From IMG/VR virus record IMGVR_UViG_3300044825_002669, positions 1 to 64,000 of that record: a DNA stretch of 64,000 nt. One strand, written 5' to 3'. The notes beneath the pieces are model-generated. The model made no database searches, had not been told where the DNA came from, and saw only the letters and a list, made by a program, of their open reading frames with translations. The DNA comes from a virus. Positions 2,752 to 51,139 of this stretch are shown here, piece after piece (position 1 is the stretch's first letter; the number at the start of each line of letters is the position of its first letter). Position numbers and translations under genes: made by a program.

Positions 2752-3105
2752 ATGAAAACATACCAACAGTTCATGGAAGATGTATCACAGGCTATTACAA
2801 CGATTGAAACAAATTGGAAAAGAAAACATCCAGATGTAAAATTATCGTTTTCTCATTCACCTAAAACAAATACGATTCGTGTAGACAATATCCGTATTCC
2901 TAAAGAGAAGCAAGGTAAAGGTATTGGATCAAGAATTATAAAGGGTATTAGTTCTTATGCAAAGAAACAGAATGTACCTGTAACACTTACACCAGAAGCA
3001 GATAAAGGTAAGAGTAAGTCATTGAATCGTTTCTATAAGAAACATGGATTTAATAAGAATAAAGATCATTCAGTGTCTGATAGTATGATTAAGTATCCAG
3101 GATAA
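2752..3105 (+). CDS. Putative capsid-packaged GNAT acetyltransferase
   Basis: A 117 aa protein. Residues 1-10, MKTYQQFMED, match the T4 internal-protein capsid-targeting peptide MKTYQEFIAE closely, although the cleavage position is Asp rather than Glu. The rest is a compact GNAT fold: the acetyl-CoA pyrophosphate-binding loop QGKGIGS (Gln54-Ser60) after RIPKEK, then the C-terminal LNRFYKKHGF (91-100) that usually contacts CoA. The start uses the TTTAATTCCTTATG context seen at 664. Together with the protein at 229 it suggests a set of head-packaged enzymes that modify host targets. The acetyltransferase call is strong; packaging is inferred from the N terminus. Confidence 0.72.
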   Translation: MKTYQQFMEDVSQAITTIETNWKRKHPDVKLSFSHSPKTNTIRVDNIRIPKEKQGKGIGSRIIKGISSYAKKQNVPVTLTPEADKGKSKSLNRFYKKHGFNKNKDHSVSDSMIKYPG

Positions 3106-3617
3106 CAGTATCACCAGCTTTCACAGAAAATGATTCAAATGTTGTGTTTTTGTTAAAAAATATCGTATTTTTGTTTAAATTTTAATTAAAAATGTATTTT
3201 TAATTGTTTTTTATTGTTTTGTTAGCGTTGATACTTATTTTTATTATTTGATTTAATGATATGAATTCGTATCATTATTGTCTTCTTATGTCTTATGTTA
3301 TTCTCTTCTTATGATCATTTAATCCTTATGTAATGTGATTTAATCCCATTTAATCCTTATGTTTATTGGTTCTTATGGTCATTTAATCCTTATGAGTCCT
3401 TGTCATTTTGGCCGTCCAATTATAACACGCGCTCACGATTTTGTCAAGGGGGCGCGGACGGAAAAAATACTGGCACAAGGCGCATAAAACTCATAAGACC
3501 CACACCGACTCATAAGGATCACAAATATCACAAAATCCAATCACGCCCACCCCCAACCATAAGAAGATCAAATATATCAGATTCTTATGAGTGACACATT
3601 GTAACAATTATTTCAGA
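3106..3617. other. Gene-free stretch with many CTTATG/CATAAG motifs
   Basis: No convincing gene is seen. From 3118 to 3280 it is very AT-rich. From 3285 to 3394 CTTATG occurs seven times, three of them within TTTAATCCTTATG, which is almost the start context of the genes at 664 and 2752. From 3420 to 3570 composition becomes GC-rich. An isolated CTGGCACAAGG lies at 3470-3480, and CATAAG occurs at 3492, 3511 and 3558. A short ORF at 3400-3594 has no recognisable features and is not accepted. Confidence 0.6.
3285..3394 (+). repeat. CTTATG / TTTAATCCTTATG short direct repeats
   Basis: CTTATG occurs at 3285, 3292, 3308, 3325, 3356, 3372 and 3389. The copies at 3325, 3356 and 3389 sit in TTTAATCCTTATG. 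None opens a sustained reading frame. They look like duplicated gene-start signals or a regulatory array. Confidence 0.6.
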
Positions 3618-3755
3618 GCAGGGTTAGCGTGGCTCACTGATCGTCATAGAGCTTCTTGCTCTCCTCTTCTCTTATGACATAAGAATAGCAGGACATGAGA
3701 CGGTATGTCAGTATGGTGTGCCACTTGTTTAACTGGCTGACAGGTGATTTTTCTG
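3618..3755 (+). repeat. Leader repeat copy R1
   Basis: First copy of the dispersed leader family. Core GCAGGGTTAGCGTGGCTCAC begins at 3618. A hairpin AGAGC-TTCTT-GCTCT lies at 3648-3662. The CTGGC box at 3733 is 69 nt before the start codon of the gene at 3802. It also contains CTTATGACATAAG at 3671-3683. Confidence 0.75.
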
Positions 3756-3801
3756 GGATTTTTTCCTGTATATTTTTCATGTTGAGATTTCGTTTTTTCT
3801 C

Positions 3802-4191
3802 ATGCAGGTTCTCACTTACACTCGTTCACTCTGTGAAGCACTTGAAGTGGACTTTCGTTTGTATTCAACGAAGCAACATAGAGCATCTGTGAATAAGGAA
3901 GTAAATATGGATTATCATAACAAATGTCTGCAACAAATTGCAGATGGTACTTATGATTTTGGTTATGAGTTTGTGATTGAAGAAGGTAAGAAATACTATA
4001 AGGTGATTATGATTGCAAATGGTTCACGGAGTGTTCATTGCTTTGTTGATAAGAATACTGGTGATGTTTACAAGTCTGCATCATGGAAATCGCCTGCCAA
4101 AGGTATTCGTTACAATTTGTTAGATGCAGTTTCACGCGAGAAGTGCTATCGTAGTCTAGACTGGGCTGGAAGGTATCTTTACATGAAATAA
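3802..4191 (+). CDS. Conserved phage hypothetical protein
   Basis: A 129 aa protein. The region from about residue 60 onward (KKYYKVIMI, then SVHCFVDKNTGDVYKSASWK, then KGIRYNLL) resembles a conserved phage protein of unknown function with a small beta-rich domain. The start ATG at 3802 is favoured because it lies 69 nt after the CTGGC box of leader R1 and in the TTCTCATG context used by other genes of the island. MDYHNK at 3907 is an alternative. It is a single-gene unit: leader upstream, GAAA-loop terminator 8 nt downstream. Confidence 0.7.
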   Translation: MQVLTYTRSLCEALEVDFRLYSTKQHRASVNKEVNMDYHNKCLQQIADGTYDFGYEFVIEEGKKYYKVIMIANGSRSVHCFVDKNTGDVYKSASWKSPAKGIRYNLLDAVSREKCYRSLDWAGRYLYMK

Positions 4192-4198
4192 TAAACAT

Positions 4199-4220
4199 AA
4201 GGATCGAAAGATCCTTTTTA
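4199..4220 (+). terminator. Intrinsic terminator
   Basis: AAGGATC, GAAA tetraloop, GATCC and T run. It ends the gene at 3802 and lies 24 nt before leader R2. Confidence 0.8.
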
Positions 4221-4244
4221 TTGTTTATACTTTATTATTTTGTG

Positions 4245-4380
4245 ACAGGGTTAGCGTGGCTCACTGATCGTCATAGAGCTTCTTGCTCTCCCCTTGTTGT
4301 TGATACAACTATAGGGCATCCAGGGTCTCATGGGGTGATGAGTGGACAGTTGTTTAACTGGCTGACATGTGGTTTTTCTG
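4245..4380 (+). repeat. Leader repeat copy R2
   Basis: Core ACAGGGTTAGCGTGGCTCAC at 4245, hairpin AGAGC-TTCTT-GCTCT at 4275-4289, CTGGC box at 4358. It is nearly identical to R1 for the first 50 nt and again over GTTTAACTGGCTGACA. TATACT occurs 20 nt before the core. Confidence 0.75.
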
Positions 4381-4427
4381 AGTGATTTTGGTTTAATATG
4401 AACAAGTCGGAAATCCGTTTTCTTCTC

Positions 4428-4793
4428 ATGACTGAACAGTATCATGGTCTCGGTGGTATCGAACTGATCGGAACTGATACCTTTAGGTATAAGGATCAAA
4501 CGGCATTTCGTTATTGTTTCCAAACCTGGAAAGTCTTTAACATTGAGGAGAATGTGATTGATACTGATCGATTCTATGTGTGGGCTGATGCAGTAGATAC
4601 AGCCTACAAGATTGCAGTGGAACATGTTTATCGTCCACTGAATGCACCTTATCATGAGGCAGTAGATTCAGGTGAAGGTGGTGGTCGTTATGAAGTGAAT
4701 CTCAATGAACAACATCGTGAAGTAGAGGTTGAAACTGATGAACAGTGGCACACTCTAATGTACGGTCATCGTGATGATTTTTACCTAGGTTAA
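4428..4793 (+). CDS. Hypothetical protein
   Basis: A 121 aa acidic protein (MTEQYHGLGGIELIGTD...) that I do not recognise. The reading frame could start at 4398, but the ATG at 4428 is preferred: it lies 70 nt after the CTGGC box of leader R2, as in the other copies, and has the TTCTCATG context shared by neighbouring starts. The protein is rich in Tyr, Glu and His and has no membrane segment. It is a single-gene unit followed by a hairpin with a T-rich tail. Confidence 0.55.
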   Translation: MTEQYHGLGGIELIGTDTFRYKDQTAFRYCFQTWKVFNIEENVIDTDRFYVWADAVDTAYKIAVEHVYRPLNAPYHEAVDSGEGGGRYEVNLNEQHREVEVETDEQWHTLMYGHRDDFYLG

Positions 4794-4802
4794 TAGTATT
4801 GC

Positions 4803-4850
4803 TGGGAGTCTGACAGTATCACAGGCTCCCACAAGATTTTTATATTTTTT
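4803..4850 (+). terminator. Terminator-like hairpin
   Basis: TGGGAG-t-CTG pairs with CAG-g-CTCCCA (4803-4831) around a 9 nt loop, with T-rich sequence from 4837. It is weaker than the others in the island. Confidence 0.55.
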
Positions 4851-4890
4851 TCGTATTTTTTCGTTTTAATTTAGTATTTCGTATTTTTTG

Positions 4891-5040
4891 GCAGGGTGAT
4901 TGTGGCTTACTGATCGTCATCGAGCTTCTTGCTCTCCCTTGGTTGTTGAATACAGTCTACCATGCCATGAGACGCACAGACCACCTGATGACCATAAGGT
5001 GTGCCACTTTTTTTCTGGCACAAGACGCTTGACCAGTTCC
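4891..5040 (+). repeat. Leader repeat copy R3
   Basis: Core GCAGGGTGATTGTGGCTTAC at 4891, hairpin GAGC-TTCTT-GCTC at 4922-4934, CTGGCACAAG box at 5015, 69 nt before the start at 5084. Confidence 0.7.
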
Positions 5041-5083
5041 ACAGGGGGATGAGAGACTATAGAAGTCGAAAGGGATTCCACCC

Positions 5084-5251
5084 ATGGCAGTCGATTCGCT
5101 CTCCAAGACCATCTACCGTCAGCTGTTCACTGAAGAGCAATGGCTGATGATCTACATGATGATCGAAAATGCCTACGATGATGATGTGTGGAGTCATGGC
5201 GATGCTGATGTCATTCGCAGAAAGATTCGCCTCTTATGTGATTTCATTTGA
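5084..5251 (+). CDS. Small hypothetical protein
   Basis: A 55 aa ORF, MAVDSLSKTIYRQLFTEEQW..., predicted mostly helical and slightly acidic; not recognised. It is supported by its place in the leader-gene-terminator pattern: the ATG lies 69 nt after the CTGGCACAAG box of R3, and a terminator starts 24 nt after the TGA. Its codon use is GC-rich at third positions, unlike the AT-rich genes nearby. Confidence 0.6.
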   Translation: MAVDSLSKTIYRQLFTEEQWLMIYMMIENAYDDDVWSHGDADVIRRKIRLLCDFI

Positions 5252-5274
5252 TAATTATTAATAATAATTATCAT

Positions 5275-5297
5275 AAGGATCTTATGATCCTTTTTTT
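5275..5297 (+). terminator. Intrinsic terminator
   Basis: AAGGATC, loop TTAT, GATCCTT and T run. An overlapping perfect inverted repeat ATCATAAG/CTTATGAT is possible on the same bases. Confidence 0.8.
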
Positions 5298-5322
5298 ATT
5301 CTTTATACTTAACTATTTCATG

Positions 5323-5470
5323 GCAGGGTTAGCGTGGCTTACTTATCGTCAACGAGCTTCGTGCTCTCCTCTTCTCTTGTTGCTAACAGTCTAGCAGGTC
5401 GTGGGGTCGTTTCAACCGATTCTGGTCAAATTGGGACAGTTCGACCACTGGCACAAGCTGGTTGGATCTG
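5323..5470 (+). repeat. Leader repeat copy R4
   Basis: Core GCAGGGTTAGCGTGGCTTAC at 5323, hairpin GAGC-TTCGT-GCTC at 5354-5366, CTGGCACAAG box at 5448, 69 nt before the start at 5517. TATACT lies upstream of the core. The repeat happens to be open (GTG GCT TAC...) in the frame of the gene, but other copies have stops there. Confidence 0.75.
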
Positions 5471-5516
5471 GTCGGCATCTGGACCCATACTAGGTGAGTC
5501 CCAAGCAATCCGAGCC

Positions 5517-5996
5517 ATGCTCACCGGATCCGAACTCATCTCCAAGGTCACCGAGCTGCAGCAGCAGAACGCCACACGTACTGACATTGTGCTTGGCTGC
5601 GGCTATGTCAAGCCTGACGGCAAGGCTGCCTATGTGGCCTTCTACGAAGCTCTGATCGAGGCTAAGACGCCACAATGGCAAAAGCAAAAGGAAGAGATCG
5701 AGACAGAGATCGAGTTCGATGATGAGGAGCAAGAGGAGCAATTCCTGGAGCTTTGTGTCAATTATCCCCAGAAAGCTCTGGAGATTTACTATGAAAACAT
5801 CGGCAACTTCGATGAGTTCGAAGAAGCTTACCAAGGAGAATACGATAGCGAGGCGCACTTTACTGAGGAAATTATCGCTGACATCTCTGAGCGTCAACTT
5901 CCCAGCTGGATTGTTGTAGATTATCAGGCAACATGGGATAGTTCAATGCGCTTTGATTACTGGGAGGAGGATAACTACTTCTTCCAGAACATGTGA
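5517..5996 (+). CDS. ArdA-like antirestriction protein (putative)
   Basis: A 159 aa, strongly acidic protein. Residues 90-130 read YYENIGNFDEFEEAYQGEYD then FTEEIIADI, the pattern of ArdA-type antirestriction domains, followed by IVVDYQATWDSSMRFDYW near the C terminus. ArdA proteins mimic the charge of B-form DNA and block type I restriction enzymes. The acidic run EEIETEIEFDDEEQEEQ (about 62-78) fits DNA mimicry. An upstream GTG at 5334 is in frame but lies inside leader R4, so the ATG at 5517 is used. The gene is GC-rich and followed by a strong terminator. It could be another small acidic protein sharing this module. Confidence 0.6.
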   Translation: MLTGSELISKVTELQQQNATRTDIVLGCGYVKPDGKAAYVAFYEALIEAKTPQWQKQKEEIETEIEFDDEEQEEQFLELCVNYPQKALEIYYENIGNFDEFEEAYQGEYDSEAHFTEEIIADISERQLPSWIVVDYQATWDSSMRFDYWEEDNYFFQNM

Positions 5997-6003
5997 TAGA
6001 TTT

Positions 6004-6030
6004 AGAGGGGAATCTTTCCCCTCTTTTTTT
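6004..6030 (+). terminator. Intrinsic terminator
   Basis: AGAGGGGAA pairs with TTCCCCTCT around a 3 nt loop, followed by a T run. Confidence 0.85.
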
Positions 6031-6055
6031 ATACTTTTCTTTTTTATATTTCATG

Positions 6056-6195
6056 GCAGGGTGACTGTGGCTTACTTTTCGTCATCGGCCTTCTTAGCCT
6101 CGGTTCGCTTGTGAGTTAATTCTAGCAGGCAGCCTCCCCAGCTATGGCCGCGGCAACCAGTTCGATCACTGGCACAAGGCGGCTAGACCGCTGGT
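6056..6195 (+). repeat. Leader repeat copy R5
   Basis: Core GCAGGGTGACTGTGGCTTAC at 6056, hairpin GGCC-TTCTT-AGCC at 6087-6099 with one C-A mismatch, CTGGCACAAG box at 6169, 70 nt before the start at 6239. Confidence 0.72.
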
Positions 6196-6238
6196 TTTGG
6201 TGGCTGGTATCTTTAAGGAGTCGAGGCAATCAAGCCCA

Positions 6239-6700
6239 ATGAACACCGACCTCCAGGCCATCACTGCTCAACTCGCCACTGTAGCAGCATCGCTGAACAC
6301 TCTACAAGAGGCTTTGGCATTGCTCCAGGAGCAGCAGGCATCCATCCCCACCAACAACGCTCTGGCGCCTTTCTCGGCTTTCCTGATGGTGGAGCTGACG
6401 CCTTACTTCGGTGGCACAATGGCCAAGGCAATTGTTGATAGTCTGAACCGCTGCAATCAACGCGGAGACTATCGCTACTTCATCCCAATGTATGAAATCG
6501 CAGCTGATGATCTGCAAAAGCGTCAACTGCTGAAACTCGTTTCTGCTATTCATCGTTACAAATTCGTCTACAGTAAGCAACACAATCACCCCCAAAAGTA
6601 TAGCCTCAAGTCTGACATTAAATACGCAAAAGCTTGTTCCCATTGTGGTGCACTTGCTTCTGTTCTTTATGATCGTCTCGTGAAAGAAGGTCTGTTCTGA
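6239..6700 (+). CDS. Hypothetical protein with N-terminal helix and CxxC
   Basis: A 153 aa protein. The N terminus (MNTDLQAITAQLATVAASLN then LQEALALLQEQQ) looks like an amphipathic or coiled-coil helix. The C terminus has CSHC, a possible half zinc site. The family is not recognised. The ATG at 6239 is preferred over upstream in-frame TTG/GTG codons because of its 70 nt spacing from the leader box and the GCAATC(N)AGCC context before the ATG, shared with the genes at 5517 and 8733. AAGGAG at 6215-6220 is a possible but distant ribosome site. First gene of a four-gene unit. Confidence 0.6.
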   Translation: MNTDLQAITAQLATVAASLNTLQEALALLQEQQASIPTNNALAPFSAFLMVELTPYFGGTMAKAIVDSLNRCNQRGDYRYFIPMYEIAADDLQKRQLLKLVSAIHRYKFVYSKQHNHPQKYSLKSDIKYAKACSHCGALASVLYDRLVKEGLF

Positions 6701-6828
6701 TGAAGATCTTTGTCTTTGCACTGGTTGCTGTTACTTTCAGCAACACACTGGTTGCATCTTTCAAGGCAGCCAAAACCTTAGATGCTAAGGTTGCAGATCT
6801 CACTTGTCAAGTTACCGAACGATGCTGA
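6700..6828 (+). CDS. Small secreted or membrane-type peptide
   Basis: A 42 aa ORF overlapping the upstream stop (TGATG). MKIFVFALVAVTFSNTLVAS is a charged start followed by a hydrophobic stretch, like a signal peptide or single membrane segment. The remainder is short and polar with two Cys. A role at the host membrane is possible but not shown. Confidence 0.5.
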   Translation: MKIFVFALVAVTFSNTLVASFKAAKTLDAKVADLTCQVTERC

Positions 6829-6878
6829 TCTTTCTTTCGATTGTTGTTCGCTTTCACTTTCACCATATAGGCTAACCT

Positions 6879-7013
6879 ATGGAAATCATGCAAACTTATG
6901 ACATCCACACCAAAGAATTGATGTGGGCATATAATGACGGAAAAACCATTTGGTATTTTCAGTCTCATGAAGTACAACAGTTTCTTGATGTTCGCCACAG
7001 GATTCTTCGATGA
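6879..7013 (+). CDS. Small hypothetical protein
   Basis: A 44 aa ORF, MEIMQTYDIHTKELMWAYND..., rich in aromatic residues; not recognised. The stop overlaps the next start (ATGATGA-type junction at 7010-7013), which suggests coupled translation. It belongs to the unit started by leader R5. Confidence 0.5.
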   Translation: MEIMQTYDIHTKELMWAYNDGKTIWYFQSHEVQQFLDVRHRILR

Positions 7014-7132
7014 TTGAACTACTCGCTGCTGCATTTATCATCGGTCAAGTAGAGATCGCTCCAGGTATTATCCGCACAGAGTATCTCAATGAGGATCGTA
7101 AAGTTATCGTAGTGGAGGAAGATAGAGACTAG
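7010..7132 (+). CDS. Small hypothetical protein with hydrophobic N terminus
   Basis: A 40 aa ORF, MIELLAAAFIIGQVEIAPGI..., with a short hydrophobic N terminus and an acidic C terminus (VVEEDRD). It overlaps the preceding stop codon and is followed 25 nt later by a strong terminator, making it the last gene of the R5 unit. Not recognised. Confidence 0.5.
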   Translation: MIELLAAAFIIGQVEIAPGIIRTEYLNEDRKVIVVEEDRD

Positions 7133-7157
7133 GTTTCACGGTGCAATAGGCTCACAC

Positions 7158-7185
7158 AGGGAGAGAGAAATCTCTCCCTTTTTTT
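7158..7185 (+). terminator. Intrinsic terminator
   Basis: AGGGAGAGA, GAAA tetraloop, TCTCTCCCT, then a T run. Confidence 0.88.
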
Positions 7186-7306
7186 ATATTTTTTTTCGTT
7201 TTTTCGTATTCTTGTGCCAGCTGGCGAACCGGTACAGGATCTCGTGAGATGCCTCCAGAAGCCCCCACAAGGCGCTACAATTACAGGGTCAACACAAAGA
7301 CACCCC

Positions 7307-7525
7307 ATGGCCGCCATTATCCCCGATCCCTGCCGCAAGTGGGTCAAAGGCACTCCCTACCGTACCGTGTGCAATGAGGTCTCAAAGGATGGTACAGTGA
7401 TCGGTATCGGCACTATTGAGATCTGGGACTACGCTCGCGCAGTCGGTGTGTGCTATGCTTCACCACTACCTAAGCGTAAAGAACCGGACATTGGTGATCT
7501 TTTTCTCGAAATGTTCGGTGCCTGA
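7307..7525 (+). CDS. Small hypothetical protein
   Basis: A 72 aa protein, MAAIIPDPCRKWVKGTPYRT..., not recognised. The ATG at 7307 is preferred over a GTG at 7214. Its leader is unusual: it lacks the GCAGGG core, but CTTGTGCCAG at 7211-7220 is the exact reverse complement of the CTGGCACAAG box of the other leaders. An 8 bp hairpin lies after the gene. Confidence 0.55.
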   Translation: MAAIIPDPCRKWVKGTPYRTVCNEVSKDGTVIGIGTIEIWDYARAVGVCYASPLPKRKEPDIGDLFLEMFGA

Positions 7526-7536
7526 TTGAGTCTTAT

Positions 7537-7564
7537 GGGGATGATACCTTATGATATCATCCTC
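7537..7564 (+). terminator. Hairpin, possible 3' end
   Basis: GGATGATA pairs with TATCATCC around CCTTATGA, extended by two further pairs. There is no T run, so termination is uncertain. Confidence 0.4.
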
Positions 7565-7636
7565 ACATAAAAAACAAATTATAATTAAACAAATCTTATT
7601 ATTCTTTTTTTATTCTTTATATCTTATTATTTTTTC

Positions 7637-7780
7637 GCAGGGTTAGCGTGGCTTACTTATCGTCAACGGCCTTCGTGGCCTCCTTTGCTTGTGAGATAAT
7701 TCTACAGCATCGGGAGCCGATCCGCGAGACAATCCGCCAAATTAAGCCAGTTTGGCCACTGGCACAATGCGGCCATGGCA
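7637..7780 (+). repeat. Leader repeat copy R6
   Basis: Core GCAGGGTTAGCGTGGCTTAC at 7637, identical to R4. The hairpin at 7668-7680 is GGCC-TTCGT-GGCC, with two base pairs changed compensatorily relative to R4. Box CTGGCACAA at 7759. Confidence 0.75.
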
Positions 7781-7832
7781 GCTGGCGATCTGGGTTCAGA
7801 ATGGCGGAGCAACCGCAACCAAGGGCGAAGCT

Positions 7833-8078
7833 GTGACCTACAACCCCACACGCGATGCCGCAACCGCCGAGCACTTCAGCCGCTGGGCTGCCGAGGCTAA
7901 AACTCTCGACGCCTATTCTCTCCAGTATGTAATTAAAGACTGCAGAGAGGCTGCAGAAGCTATGGCTGGCTGGAATCCTGTCCGTGAGGGTTTCTACATC
8001 GATCAGATGCTAACCTATGCTGCAGAGCTTAACTTGCGCAACTCTAAGTTACCTTTCGGCTTGCGCCATCGCATCTGA
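7833..8078 (+). CDS. Conserved hypothetical phage protein
   Basis: An 81 aa protein reading MTYNPTRDAATAEHF, then LDAYSLQYVIKDCREAAEAM and GFYIDQMLTYAAEL. This resembles a conserved small phage protein of unknown function that is mainly helical. The GTG at 7833 is chosen because it lies 74 nt after the CTGGCACAA box, matching the other leaders, and AAGGG precedes it. An ATG at 7767 (103 aa) is the alternative, but it falls inside the repeat. Confidence 0.6.
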   Translation: MTYNPTRDAATAEHFSRWAAEAKTLDAYSLQYVIKDCREAAEAMAGWNPVREGFYIDQMLTYAAELNLRNSKLPFGLRHRI

Positions 8079-8119
8079 ATGTAGCTAACTCTCAGGGGGC
8101 AGAGTATAAAGTCCCCATG

Positions 8120-8145
8120 CAATCCCACCGCTATTCTTTATCATG
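8120..8145 (+). repeat. Second-type leader, copy a
   Basis: CAATCCCACCGCTATTCTTT then ATCATG. It shares C-x-ATCCCA-[CT]-CGCT-ATT-TCATG with copies at 8341 and 9476. A weak GGGG...CCCC hairpin lies just upstream (8094-8116). Confidence 0.5.
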
Positions 8146-8322
8146 AGAATCCAAACTCCCTACAAATTCAGCAAATTAGCTTACTTCGGACTTGACACAA
8201 AAGCTCGCGTGGGTGATGAGTATTTGGCAGCAGGAATCGGTAGGTTTTATGTCGGAATCTATCCGACATCTAGCGGCTTTGATCTATCCTGCGGCATCCT
8301 AGATCAAAACGGTTCACTGTAA
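8143..8322 (+). CDS. Small hypothetical protein
   Basis: A 59 aa ORF, MRIQTPYKFSKLAYFGLDTK..., rich in Tyr, Phe and Gly; predicted beta-rich and not recognised. It starts at the ATG that ends second-type leader copy a. Codon use is GC-rich like its neighbours. Confidence 0.55.
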   Translation: MRIQTPYKFSKLAYFGLDTKARVGDEYLAAGIGRFYVGIYPTSSGFDLSCGILDQNGSL

Positions 8323-8340
8323 CTTTAAGCCTACATTCTC

Positions 8341-8364
8341 ACCCCATCGCTTTAGATTCTCATG
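8341..8364 (+). repeat. Second-type leader, copy b
   Basis: ACCCCATCGCTTTAGATTCT then CATG, aligned with the copies at 8120 and 9476. Confidence 0.5.
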
Positions 8365-8523
8365 ACAATCCGCATCTCTTTCTTTGCACCTTACCCTCGC
8401 TTCAATGGCGAGAGAAGAACACAAGAATTCAAAACTATTTCAGAGGCTAGAAGTATGGTGAGCTTCTACAACTCTCTGGGGTTTTATGATGCAAAAGTCG
8501 AAACTTTTGCCGATAAAGTATAA
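8362..8523 (+). CDS. Small hypothetical protein
   Basis: A 53 aa ORF, MTIRISFFAPYPRFNGERRT..., with a likely beta-strand start and an amphipathic middle (TISEARSMVSFYNSL). Not recognised. It starts at the ATG of second-type leader copy b and is followed by the inverted leader copy R7. Confidence 0.55.
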   Translation: MTIRISFFAPYPRFNGERRTQEFKTISEARSMVSFYNSLGFYDAKVETFADKV

Positions 8524-8540
8524 TTAAAGTTTTATGTCAG

Positions 8541-8634
8541 GGGCGGCTGGCCTGGCCCCCCTGGCATGGTAGGATTGGTGAAACCGGTAGAGGGTCCGAA
8601 GCCCAGCGACGAAAGTGAGCCACGCTTACCCTGC
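8541..8634 (-). repeat. Inverted, orphan leader repeat copy R7
   Basis: Read on the minus strand from 8634: GCAGGGTAAGCGTGGCTCAC, then a hairpin GGGC-TTCGG-ACCC at 8592-8604. The core-to-hairpin distance is 30 nt, against 31 in copies R1-R6. There is no CTGGCACAAG box and no minus-strand gene follows. A GC-rich inverted repeat (CAGGGG...CCCCTG) lies at about 8538-8562. It may be a small RNA or a recombination relic. Confidence 0.65.
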
Positions 8635-8705
8635 CATGAAATAGTAGTGTGACGGATTGTTACGGTTTGGCGATTCGAGCCACGGTGCCGCCTTCCTAGG
8701 TCCTA

Positions 8706-8722
8706 CATTGGCGGAGCCAATG
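8706..8722 (+). promoter_or_regulatory. Hairpin before the start at 8733
   Basis: CATTGGC, loop GGA, GCCAATG: a perfect 7 bp stem ending 10 nt before the ATG. GGAG overlaps the loop, so the structure could control ribosome access. Confidence 0.45.
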
Positions 8723-8732
8723 CAATCGAGCC

Positions 8733-9434
8733 ATGCAAACCCTCACCGTCACCGCAACCAACCTTGGCAGCGTCAGCCGCGCCGATGACATTGCACGCGC
8801 CGCGCGTCACGCCGCATTGAGCGATCCTCGCGTGATGACCGTCACCGCTCGTGGGGAGGTTGTAACCTTTGAAAGCCGCCTGAGCGATGACGCTGCGCAG
8901 GATCTCCTGCAGTGGTGTTCTGGCCGCTTTGCAAAGTCGCTATGGCAGCAGTCTCACGAGCGTGGCCTGTCGCCAGCTCAGATGGCCTGGGCTCACAAGC
9001 TCTCCACTGATCTTCTGCAGGCAGAATCTGCGGAGGATGATAACAACGAGCCCCAGTTTGAGCGGCTCTTCAGTGTATTTCAGGCTGCAAAGTCTCGCGG
9101 ATTGAAGCGACTCACACTGCGTTTAAGCGGTGTAAATGTAAAGCCAAACCGTGACAATACGGCATTATGGGTCACTTCTCAGACTGAGACTGAGGAAGGT
9201 AATTATGGTCCTCAGCCAAAGTATCTCGGTAAAATTACACCTAACCGTTTAGATTCTCGCCTCTCTGATGATATCAAGGCGGTGCTTTTAGAGGCCGCCA
9301 GTGATCCTCTCACCGCCGCAGTTCGCTACGGTAAAGAGACTGGCAGCTGTTCATGTTGCGGTCGTGATCTAACCAATCCCCAATCAATCGAGCTGGGAAT
9401 CGGTCCTATCTGCCGTGAAAAGTTCGGCCTCTAG
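8733..9434 (+). CDS. DUF6011-like zinc-ribbon protein
   Basis: A 233 aa protein. The C terminus (about 205-233) reads YGKETGSCSCCGRDLTNPQS then LGIGPICREKFGL, the Cys-x2-Cys...Cys pattern of the DUF6011 domain found in many phage and actinobacterial proteins, probably a zinc site. The N-terminal 80 residues are Ala/Arg rich with a beta-alpha pattern; the middle resembles nothing I recognise. Function is unknown and nucleic-acid binding is plausible. It is one of the most GC-rich genes here. The start follows GCAATCGAGCCATG, the context seen at 5517. Confidence 0.65.
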   Translation: MQTLTVTATNLGSVSRADDIARAARHAALSDPRVMTVTARGEVVTFESRLSDDAAQDLLQWCSGRFAKSLWQQSHERGLSPAQMAWAHKLSTDLLQAESAEDDNNEPQFERLFSVFQAAKSRGLKRLTLRLSGVNVKPNRDNTALWVTSQTETEEGNYGPQPKYLGKITPNRLDSRLSDDIKAVLLEAASDPLTAAVRYGKETGSCSCCGRDLTNPQSIELGIGPICREKFGL

Positions 9435-12312: not shown

Positions 12313-12714
12313 ATGCCACTAGAACGAGTAAGTAAGGGTTTTAAAGATATTAGCATGTCTTTTAAGGTAAATCCTTTTAATTATGATTTAATTGACATCA
12401 AAAATGAAACTGCAATTGCTCGTTCAATTCGAAATTTAGTATTAACTTCAAATGGTGAAAGATTTTTCAATCAAAATCTTGGCTCAAGAGTAAATAAACT
12501 GTTATTCGAAAATATAGACTCAATAACTGGATCTATAATTGAAGATGAAATAAGAACTACGATTAGTAACTATGAGCCAAGGGTATCTTTAATCTCTGTC
12601 AATGCAACCCCAAATTATGATCAAAATGAATTTGAAGTAACAATAAAATATCAAATTATAGGAATTGATGTATTACCGCAGCAATTAACATTTGCACTAT
12701 TGCCAACAAGATAA
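12313..12714 (+). CDS. 25: gp25 baseplate wedge subunit
   Basis: A 133 aa protein of the GPW/gp25 family (T4 gp25 is about 132 aa). AIARSIRNLVLTSNGERFFN then QNLGSRVNKLLFE is the family signature. In T4, gp25 sits at the inner baseplate and nucleates sheath polymerisation with gp6, gp7 and gp53. The gene runs directly into gene 6 (stop at 12712-12714, start at 12715), as in other T4-like phages. Confidence 0.93.
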   Translation: MPLERVSKGFKDISMSFKVNPFNYDLIDIKNETAIARSIRNLVLTSNGERFFNQNLGSRVNKLLFENIDSITGSIIEDEIRTTISNYEPRVSLISVNATPNYDQNEFEVTIKYQIIGIDVLPQQLTFALLPTR

Positions 12715-49954: not shown

Positions 49955-51139
49955 ATGTCTCGTGGAAAAAACTTACAAGAAATGGAAGTAGGCACAAAGC
50001 AATCCAAATCTGCTGTAAATGCAAGTGCTAAACCAGCAGAGCCAATGCCACATCTAACCACAGGTATTCCTGATGGCCAAAGTGCAACTGGATGGGAAGA
50101 CCTTGGTGGTCCTACACCAGAAAACTATAAATCAGATGATGACTCAGCTAAGATCAAAGACCCAGCTGCTACACTCAAGAGTGTAAGTGATGTAGTAAAT
50201 GCAAAGGCACATGCAGCTGATGCCATGCAAAAAATGGCTATGAAAGAAGAAGCTGATGAGGAAGATGAAGATATTCTAGATGAATCAGAAGATCTAGAAG
50301 AAGTAGAAGAAATTAATGAAGAAGATGAATCTGACGAAGAAGAGTCAGATGAAGGTGAGGACGAAGAAGAGGAAGAAGAGGAAGAAGAGCTAGAAGAAGA
50401 ATTTGATGTAGAGGAAGACGTTCAAGCTCTCGTTGAGGGCGAAGAACTCTCAGAAGAATTTAAAGATAAAGCAAAGCTAATTTTTGAATCTGCACTTCGT
50501 TCTAAAGTAAATGAAATTCGTGTTGCTCTAGAAGAGCAATATGAGGAAGCATATGAGCAAAGACTCTGCGAAGAAGTAGAGTTGATGAAGGAAACTCTAG
50601 AGGATCGTATTGATTCATATCTAGAGTATGTTGCTGATGAGTGGATGCAAGAGAATACTCTTGCAATTGAATATGGAATTAAAGAGCAACTAAGTGAATC
50701 ATTCTTGACTAACCTCAAGAATCTTTTTGAAGATCATTATGTACAACTCCCTGAAGAAAAATATGATGTACTTGAGAATATGGTAGAAAAACTTGATGAA
50801 ATGGAGACAAAACTCAACGAGCAGATTGAAAGAAATATTCAACTCAACAAGCGTCTCTCAGAGTCGGTTGCTGATAGAATCTTTGATGAAGTATCTGGTG
50901 GTCTAGCTACTACTCAGAAAGAAAAGCTCGCTTCACTTGCCGAAAGTGTTGAGTTTGAAAGTGAAGTAAAATATCGTGAAAAATTGGAGACTTTAAAGGA
51001 ATCATATTTTCCAACAAAATCAACATCTCCAGTAGCTCAACCTGAAACTCTTTCAGAAGGAGTAGTTTCATTGACTGAAGATTATTCTCCTTCAATGAAC
51101 ACTTATATGAAAGCCCTTTCTATGTTGGCCAAAAACTGA
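49955..51139 (+). CDS. 22: gp22 prohead core scaffold
   Basis: A 394 aa scaffold protein, longer than T4 gp22 (269 aa). It starts with a Gly/Pro-containing region, then has a highly acidic stretch of Asp and Glu (about 95-155), followed by a long helical domain (FKDKAKLIFESALRSKVNEI, EEQYEEAYEQRLCEEVELMK) as in other cyanophage gp22 proteins. It guides capsid assembly and is degraded by gp21. Ribosome site GGAGAG before the ATG. Confidence 0.92.
   Translation: MSRGKNLQEMEVGTKQSKSAVNASAKPAEPMPHLTTGIPDGQSATGWEDLGGPTPENYKSDDDSAKIKDPAATLKSVSDVVNAKAHAADAMQKMAMKEEADEEDEDILDESEDLEEVEEINEEDESDEEESDEGEDEEEEEEEEELEEEFDVEEDVQALVEGEELSEEFKDKAKLIFESALRSKVNEIRVALEEQYEEAYEQRLCEEVELMKETLEDRIDSYLEYVADEWMQENTLAIEYGIKEQLSESFLTNLKNLFEDHYVQLPEEKYDVLENMVEKLDEMETKLNEQIERNIQLNKRLSESVADRIFDEVSGGLATTQKEKLASLAESVEFESEVKYREKLETLKESYFPTKSTSPVAQPETLSEGVVSLTEDYSPSMNTYMKALSMLAKN

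Follow-up and report, generated by a model that had tools for sequence, protein, structure and literature searches.

Cyanophages, the viruses of photosynthetic bacteria, carry a leader not previously listed, consisting of a predicted promoter and an RNA hairpin, in front of small, mostly unknown genes, and in some of these viruses up to a dozen copies look like interchangeable joints along which the genes have been swapped. The leader was analysed in the first 64,000 nt (the window) of IMG/VR virus record IMGVR_UViG_3300044825_002669, which is 100,590 bp long. Seven copies are present in the whole record, six in the forward orientation and one inverted. The units, numbered by window position, are as follows.

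3606..3801 (+), leader copy 1, comprising a -10-like box, the GCAGG core, hairpin 2 and a CTGGC box, up to the ATG of the DUF7717 gene 3802-4191
3648..3662 (+), hairpin 2 of copy 1 (AGAGC-TTCTT-GCTCT); the corresponding stretch is aligned in the other copies
4199..4216 (+), predicted intrinsic terminator between unit 1 and copy 2
4233..4397 (+), leader copy 2 (the GACAGGGT variant), up to the ATG of gene 4398-4793 (131 aa, no match in PHROGs or Pfam)
4879..5083 (+), leader copy 3, up to the ATG of gene 5084-5251 (55 aa)
5275..5292 (+), predicted intrinsic terminator between unit 3 and copy 4
5311..5516 (+), leader copy 4, up to the ATG of gene 5517-5996 (159 aa, matching an anti-restriction phrog, E 1e-7)
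5447..5457 (+), CTGGC box (ACTGGCACAAG) of copy 4, the second half of a CAGT-N6-ACTG dyad
6004..6024 (+), predicted intrinsic terminator between unit 4 and copy 5
6044..6238 (+), leader copy 5, up to the ATG of gene 6239-6700 (153 aa); predicted promoter P2: TAGACC, 18 nt, TATCTT
6168..6178 (+), CTGGC box of copy 5
7625..7766 (+), leader copy 6, up to ORF 7767-8078 (start codon uncertain)
8562..8646 (-), copy 7, an inverted copy facing the array, with its own second hairpin and only a 36-aa TTG ORF behind it

The initial annotation, which described a dispersed leader repeat of about 190 nt with six forward copies and a seventh inverted one, was correct in its observation. The exact core pattern GCAGGGTNANNGTGGCTNAC was found at 3618, 4891, 5323, 6056 and 7637 on the forward strand and at 8634 on the reverse strand, while the backwards control pattern gave no match. 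The copy at 4245 reads GACAGGGT and therefore fails the literal GCAGGGT given for it, but is otherwise a full copy. The TCGTC said to follow the core lies 3 nt after it in the six forward copies and 2 nt after it in the inverted copy. A covariance model (R1) finds exactly these seven in the whole record, but it was trained on them. A second model (R2), built from 21 sequences with no window-type member, finds six of the seven at E 5e-8 to 4e-4 in 208 kb, five of them over 52-61 nt and the inverted copy over 22 nt only, while the copy at 4245 is missed at E 0.01. Terminators were predicted directly upstream of the copies at 4245, 5323 and 6056, but none was found by the same criterion at 3618, 4891 and 7637. 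A CTGGC box is present in all six forward copies, although the regular expression used for counting missed that of 4891, and the ATG of an ORF of at least 45 aa lies 153-194 nt after the core in five of the six. However, not all of the approximately 190 nt are conserved: the strict block is about 75 nt, from the -10 box to CTAGCA, and the rest is a set of spaced boxes.

The leader is not confined to this virus. Sixteen further IMG/VR records, one of them near-identical, carry the window type, with up to 12 copies each. Divergent homologues occur in other IMG/VR contigs and in the isolated phages B23 (7 copies), S-SRM01 (2), P-SSM2 (1) and S-SSM7 (1); an annotated S-SSM7 gene lies inside a leader and is a probable misannotation. 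The islands of the window, B23 and S-SRM01 occupy the same genomic place, before gp25/gp6. In the collection of copies, 13 of 33 stretches were dropped as chance pattern matches, and the near-identical record (L017) was kept out of the copy set. A Syn9 hit was set aside because it overlaps annotated coding DNA, as were the hits in P-TIM68 (E 1.6), in S-SM2 and at a second P-SSM2 position (E above 0.1), and a hit of 19 nt in S-CBWM1 (E 7e-4). No exact match to a stricter pattern was found in GTDB genome contigs. No Rfam 15 family scored at or above its gathering threshold: the best below-threshold hit in window positions 3000-9000 had E 0.39, six island loci gave only a tRNA, and the best hit in P-SSM2-type loci had E 1.4. 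A separate tRNA search found none.

A unit typically begins after a terminator. A terminator-like hairpin lies within 75 nt upstream of 49 of 69 copies, against 23 of 690 shuffled sequences; several of the 20 copies lacking one by this criterion are first copies with no unit before them. A -10-like box is located just before GCAGG (predicted promoter P1), with a peak of z 3.9 along the profile, although its -35 is poor and the region AT-rich. For the second predicted promoter (P2), which is sigma-70-like, the best -35/-10 pair places the -10 at -34..-26 from the ATG, typically about 31 nt before it, in 33 of 64 leaders, where 7 are expected if uniform; orthologous leaders are not independent. 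P2 scores exceed the 95th percentile of shuffles in only 16% of leaders, so that the position is convincing but the strength is not. The CTGGC box was found by the regular expression in 36 of 67 leaders, at a median of 70 nt from the ATG (IQR 69-71, range 41 to 113), and 31 leaders lack it by this expression.

Hairpin 2 is supported by covariation. In an alignment of 21 divergent copies (A4), all 5 pairs have changes on both sides (31 cells, 8.9 when shuffled), and the covariation score is 0.741 against 0.190 +/- 0.042 shuffled and at most 0.174 when slid. In 58 window-type copies (A1) A-U/G-C exchange was 30/28 and G-C/C-G 38/20, while in 20 B23-type copies (A2) C-G/G-C was 11/9 and G-C/A-U 9/6. 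However, the numbers of pairs and pair types do not exceed shuffles in these counts, the outermost A4 pair is broken in 11 of 21 copies, and the rows of A2 and A4 were chosen by loop length after the hairpins had been seen. L009 was removed from A1, and 13 of 33 B23-type copies with other loop lengths or of ambiguous form were left out of A2. A4 left out two L105 copies identical to L098, 26 of 33 B23-type copies, one of two S-SRM01 copies and, following a preceding alignment (A3), two window rows and a wrongly oriented L060 row.

Other structures received less support. Helix 1 (GUGGC/GUCAU), proposed by RNAalifold, pairs in 96.9% of window-type cells but has no double change in A1, and in the B23 type only 67% of cells are paired; it was not upheld. 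A third hairpin before CTAGCA and a stem closing the 5' and 3' ends looked plausible by eye, but the hairpin did not beat shuffles in the B23 type (1.49 against 1.77, 25 of 34 copies usable) and did so only slightly in the window type (2.03 against 1.61, 30 of 58); neither is claimed. A longest-stem test for hairpin 2 beat shuffles (3.75 against 2.52; 3.97 against 2.52), but a control window at the 5' end of the same leaders scored equally (3.74, 3.93), and the hairpin therefore rests on covariation. An unanchored APC mutual-information scan was confounded by misalignment between types. A Pho-box-like sequence in the inverted copies was seen by eye only and is not claimed.

The genes behind the leaders are rearranged between relatives. 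For gene families that head a cassette in two of 9 genomes, the preceding cassette shares no family in 32 of 44 comparisons, with 12 more skipped because the cassette is first. Similarity switches inside the leader: 47 leader pairs that share the upstream but not the downstream gene have a mean identity of 0.69 upstream, 0.85 in the core and 0.59 in the distal part, 51 pairs of the converse kind have 0.65, 0.82 and 0.66, and 1723 pairs sharing neither gene have 0.54, 0.79 and 0.51. The effect is moderate, as the medians differ little (upstream 0.66 against 0.58; distal 0.67 against 0.59). A further 125 leader pairs without an assigned gene were dropped, and because orthologues recur and the pairs are not independent, means and medians rather than P values are given.

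The most likely explanation, to which we assign a probability of about 0.6, is a PeSL-like promoter/terminator cassette system carrying a new structured 5' leader RNA. In this view each copy would be the joint of a self-contained gene cassette, comprising, from 5' to 3', the terminator of the previous unit, promoter P1 (a TAT-rich -10 just before GCAGG, with a weak -35 or none), a transcribed leader of about 75 nt with the covarying hairpin, a variable operator-like dyad (most often CAGT-N6-ACTGGCACAA), promoter P2, and the start codon of a small, mostly unknown gene. Because the joints are alike and the genes are not, homologous recombination between joints would swap, insert and remove genes, and any gene landing behind a joint would inherit the same expression signals. 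The 5' hairpin RNA most likely acts in cis on the P1 transcript (stability, pausing or factor binding), marking it as part of one regulon. The sequences themselves demonstrate the anatomy, the copy number, covariation of one hairpin, the fixed positions of the dyad and of the P2 -10, the reshuffling of cassettes and the switching of similarity inside leaders, whereas use of P1 and P2, early timing, recombination as the cause of the switches, and every function of the RNA are inferred without transcript data. An inverted copy without a clear gene behind it closes 10 of 13 multi-copy arrays and is not explained by this model. The interpretation of the initial annotation, a mobile or duplicated regulatory leader co-controlling an accessory-gene island, with no described family of this kind known to it in T4-like phages, is partly supported: a duplicated leader tied to such an island, with genes shuffled around it, is supported, while co-control is inferred from the shared signals alone, and the absence of a described family holds for Rfam, but a related kind is known.

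That related kind is the PeSLs (promoter early stem-loops), 'mobile regulatory cassettes' of T4-like phages (Arbiol 2010, Comeau 2014, as cited in PMC4503421). Both are composites of a terminator hairpin directly upstream of a promoter (here predicted) between small variable genes, occur in many copies per genome and are linked with gene shuffling. The present leader differs in having about 75 nt of predicted transcribed leader with a covarying hairpin, a second predicted promoter further down and operator-like dyads. The genome of RB49, in which PeSLs were reportedly described, has no match to R1 or R2, a comparison that rests on these two models rather than on published PeSL sequences. PeSLs were judged an unlikely cause of the S-PM2 ORFan region (PMC4503421). 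The antitermination RNAs HK022 put and B. subtilis EAR are likewise structured RNAs at the start of transcripts (here predicted) in terminator-rich surroundings; here only one hairpin is supported, and Rfam gave no match. The motifs manA, wcaG and PhotoRC-II are structured RNAs reported in T4-like cyanophages, often in possible 5' UTRs (PMC2864571), but they are tied to particular metabolic or photosynthesis genes, while the present leader precedes unrelated unknown genes, is repeated in arrays and did not match them. The SPO1 host-takeover module is also an array of small early genes, each with its own strong promoter; a shared structured leader is not known from it.

Alternative explanations are less likely. 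In a put- or EAR-like processive antitermination, the hairpin RNA made from P1 would modify RNA polymerase to read through the terminators between cassettes, P1 giving long polycistronic and P2 monocistronic RNA, with the inverted copy meeting the polymerase head-on. The position of a structured element at the predicted 5' end of many transcripts, mostly after a terminator, and the inverted copy facing the array in 10 of 13 multi-copy records agree with this. However, the put form with two adjacent hairpins needs helix 1, which is not supported outside the window type, one leader would suffice for readthrough, so that 6-12 copies are not needed, and no factor was identified; we regard this reading as unlikely. 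Also unlikely, to a similar degree, is an element acting only as DNA, namely promoter DNA plus a palindromic protein site with an incidental RNA hairpin. GCAGG at the predicted start site is among the strictest positions, and the CTGGC box lies at +110-115 or +121-124 from the core, about one helical turn apart. Nevertheless, the stem changes in sequence while staying complementary, with short loops and in one type a recurring six-base loop, whereas a DNA site for one protein would keep its sequence rather than its complementarity.

A non-autonomous mobile element, MITE-like or driven by a homing endonuclease, which inserts before genes is considered very unlikely. Copies are dispersed in both orientations, an HNH/NUMOD4 gene lies inside one island, and HNH genes are annotated near the B23 and S-SRM01 islands, but most copies sit at a similar distance from the ATG and after terminators, no transposase was found among the roughly 25 proteins searched, and the S-SM2 homologue of the DUF7717 gene has no leader. 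A conserved leader peptide (ATG GCA GGG ...) was rejected: 39 of 58 window-type copies have an ATG in that frame, but 12 of 58 stop at codon 4, 19 of 58 have no ATG there, and length changes of 1-4 nt before the hairpin break the frame. A more speculative possibility, which is considered unlikely on present evidence, is that the leader is an RNA 'passport', whereby a phage-specific regulator (a protein, or modified RNA polymerase) would recognise the 5' hairpin RNA, so that any gene recombined behind a leader joins one phage regulon, and the inverted copy would make a small RNA that tunes or insulates the array. If so, cyanophages would build anti-host gene arsenals by an RNA-tagged cassette system.

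Variable genes of unknown function make up much of cyanophage genomes, and how they are gained and switched on is an open question. The leader, which is present in isolated phages as well as in IMG/VR records, provides a concrete, searchable joint that marks such genes and predicts their promoters, start codons and likely co-regulation.

The window comprises bases 1-64000 of a 100,590-bp virus record of a T4-like cyanophage. A gp6-like gene at position 12715 matches Synechococcus and Prochlorococcus phages with 65-67% DNA identity in the 12 records listed, and the ORF preceding it, at 12313, is gp25-like by position. The core sequence described in the initial annotation is present at all seven reported places and nowhere else in the record, confirming the observation, although the copy at 4245 differs by one letter from the consensus given there.

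A search of IMG/VR with the exact core pattern found 33 stretches, of which 20, located in 16 records, are real copies. A covariance model (R1) built from 58 copies has matches in 16 of 16 of these records, up to 12 in each, all at E below 1e-12. However, the records were chosen by the pattern, which means that this result is not independent, and several of them are near-duplicates (G005 of the window, G015 of G003, and G007 of G002, where G numbers denote individual records). One further match, cut off by a contig end, has an E value of 0.013. Blast of the window leader found no named cyanophage and only three Tenacibaculum records, matched by chance, while R1 found seven divergent copies in the isolate B23, and a motif shared by B23 and the third window copy added five IMG/VR records. 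The gene located behind the fifth window copy led to S-SRM01, an isolate from Serangoon Reservoir. Genomes included as controls unexpectedly yielded one complete copy in P-SSM2, which is also present in P-SSM5 and in further IMG/VR contigs. A stricter exact pattern has no match in GTDB genome contigs.

As an independent check, a second model (R2), trained on 21 non-window copies, finds six of the seven window copies at E values of 5e-8 to 4e-4, with the inverted one matched over only 22 nt. Among 20 named phages searched with strict filters, R2 reports six with E values up to 0.5, of which four were accepted, namely, B23 (seven copies, two of them in the training set), S-SRM01 (two copies, one in the training set), P-SSM2 (one copy, in the training set) and S-SSM7 (one copy, E 4e-9, not in the training set). 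The hits in S-SM2 (E 0.18) and S-CBWM1 (a 19-nt span, E 7e-4), as well as a second hit in P-SSM2 (E 0.4), were not considered credible. Fourteen of the 20 phages, among them S-PM2, Syn9, P-SSM4, S-CRM01 and the coliphage RB49, have no hit. In S-SSM7 (locus L130, positions 50922-51125) the annotated gene SSSM7_085 lies inside a leader copy and is probably spurious; the true unit would be SSSM7_086.

The elements of a unit are given here from 5' to 3'. A terminator-like hairpin is found within 75 nt upstream in 49 of 69 plus-strand copies, compared with 23 of 690 shuffles. It is followed by a -10-like box ending about 3 nt before GCAGG, which reads TATAAT in two B23 copies and mostly TATTTT or TATTTC in window-type copies; its mean score peaks at -12 and -9. 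GCAGG and a conserved stretch of about 28 nt precede hairpin 2. In the P-SSM2 type and part of the B23 type this hairpin has a six-base loop (UACCCC, UACAUC, GACCCU and similar) on stems of changing sequence, whereas in the window type the loop is mostly UUCG- or UUCU-like. All five pairs of hairpin 2 vary on both sides in 21 sequences, and the covariation score far exceeds the shuffled and slid controls, although the mere number of pairs and of pair types does not exceed shuffles, and the outermost pair is broken in 11 of 21 sequences.

The hairpin is followed by a pyrimidine-rich linker and, in most copies, by nnCTAGCA. Further downstream lies a dyad, most often CAGT-N6-ACTGGCACAA. The CTGGC box of this dyad occurs in 36 of 67 leaders, 69-71 nt (interquartile range; full range 41-113) before ATG, while GTATC-N4-GATAC occurs in 8 of 67. 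In leaders of loci L055-L074 the CTGGC box sits at either +110-115 or +121-124 from the core, about one DNA helical turn apart, while mostly staying 69-71 nt before ATG. The second predicted promoter, P2, has its -10 at -34..-26 from ATG in 33 of 64 leaders, where 7 would be expected if positions were uniform. The ATG itself is located 179-206 nt after the core in 35 of 45 leaders, leaving out the chance locus L009. Boxes of the type CTGGCACA also occur without the structured leader, in locus L080 (S-SRM01), at window positions 3469-3479 and in locus L096, as if the box plus P2 were a separate module.

The genes behind the leaders are small and mostly unknown. Their products include DUF7717, Kyano_Gp96, GP88, DUF2786 and DUF6011 proteins, as well as an anti-restriction-like protein. 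The latter, encoded behind the fourth window copy (5517-5996), matches phrog_36653 (E 1e-7) and shows 26-27% identity over its length to proteins of 42-47-kb Synechococcus phages, two of which are annotated as antirestriction; however, searches of PDB sequences and NCBIfam gave no match, and Pfam gave only a sub-threshold one. The DUF7717 gene has a homologue in S-SM2, which has no leader by R1.

Maps of 15 islands, near-duplicates included, show the same cassettes in different order and company. Among 9 genomes, families heading a cassette in two genomes have a preceding cassette that shares no family in 32 of 44 comparisons. Similarity switches inside the leader: the copy at 4245 and its counterparts in records G002 and G016 share the preceding DUF7717 gene (identity 0.88-0.94 upstream and 0.88-0.93 in the core) but not the gene that follows at once (0.59-0.69 in the distal part). 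Over all pairs the effect is in the expected direction both ways, but it is moderate in the means and small in the medians. An HNH/NUMOD4 homing-type endonuclease gene lies inside a cassette island in locus L061 (3966-4466, in coordinates of the reversed locus) and could help to mobilise cassettes.

Of 13 records with two or more window-type copies (the window record, G000, and 12 of the 16 records searched with R1), 10 have exactly one inverted copy, located at the downstream end and facing the array, while G001, G009 and G011 have none; after the removal of near-duplicates about six distinct cases remain. The inverted copy has its own second hairpin, whose stem appears by eye to differ between copies. 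No recurring gene was found behind it: there is a 36-aa TTG ORF in the window and ORFs of 44-132 aa in loci L022, L023, L025 and L039. The window ORF is antisense to gene 8362-8523, and the similar ORF of L022 probably is too. In loci L098, L102 and L105 (L105 repeats L098) a copy without an ATG ORF also lies in the opposite orientation, but inside the array, back to back with a forward copy.

The surroundings of the island contain other sequence features. A perfect sigma-70 promoter sequence (TTGACA-17-TATAAT) at 3419-3447 on the minus strand points away from the island, 160-193 bp upstream of the first copy. The same is found in 5 of 8 islands examined, two of them near-duplicates, with a near-perfect one (GATAAT) further upstream in another island. 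The words CATAAG/CTTATG are dense in the gene-poor DNA before the island, with 11 occurrences in the 620 bp from 3001 to 3620 against 7 in the preceding 3000 bp. Three places at 35, 229 and 2752 share a similar DNA repeat (family D5), and two of them start ORFs with MKTFNQFLDEA and MKTYQQFMEDV, possibly a shared targeting or cleavage sequence.

No Rfam family corresponds to the leader. Literature searches, which included PMC4503421, PMC2864571, PMC8557907, PMC2984593 and PMC4177764, showed no paper recognisable as describing this element, although subscription journals were poorly covered and it is not claimed that the element is absent from print. The closest kind are the PeSLs, composite promoter-terminator cassettes of T4-like phages (PMC4503421). 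The anatomy of the leader and the mosaicism around it are demonstrated by sequence comparison, while the use of the promoters, their timing, recombination and any action of the RNA are inferred. The favoured interpretation, with a confidence of 0.6, is that the element represents a PeSL-like cassette joint with a structured leader.
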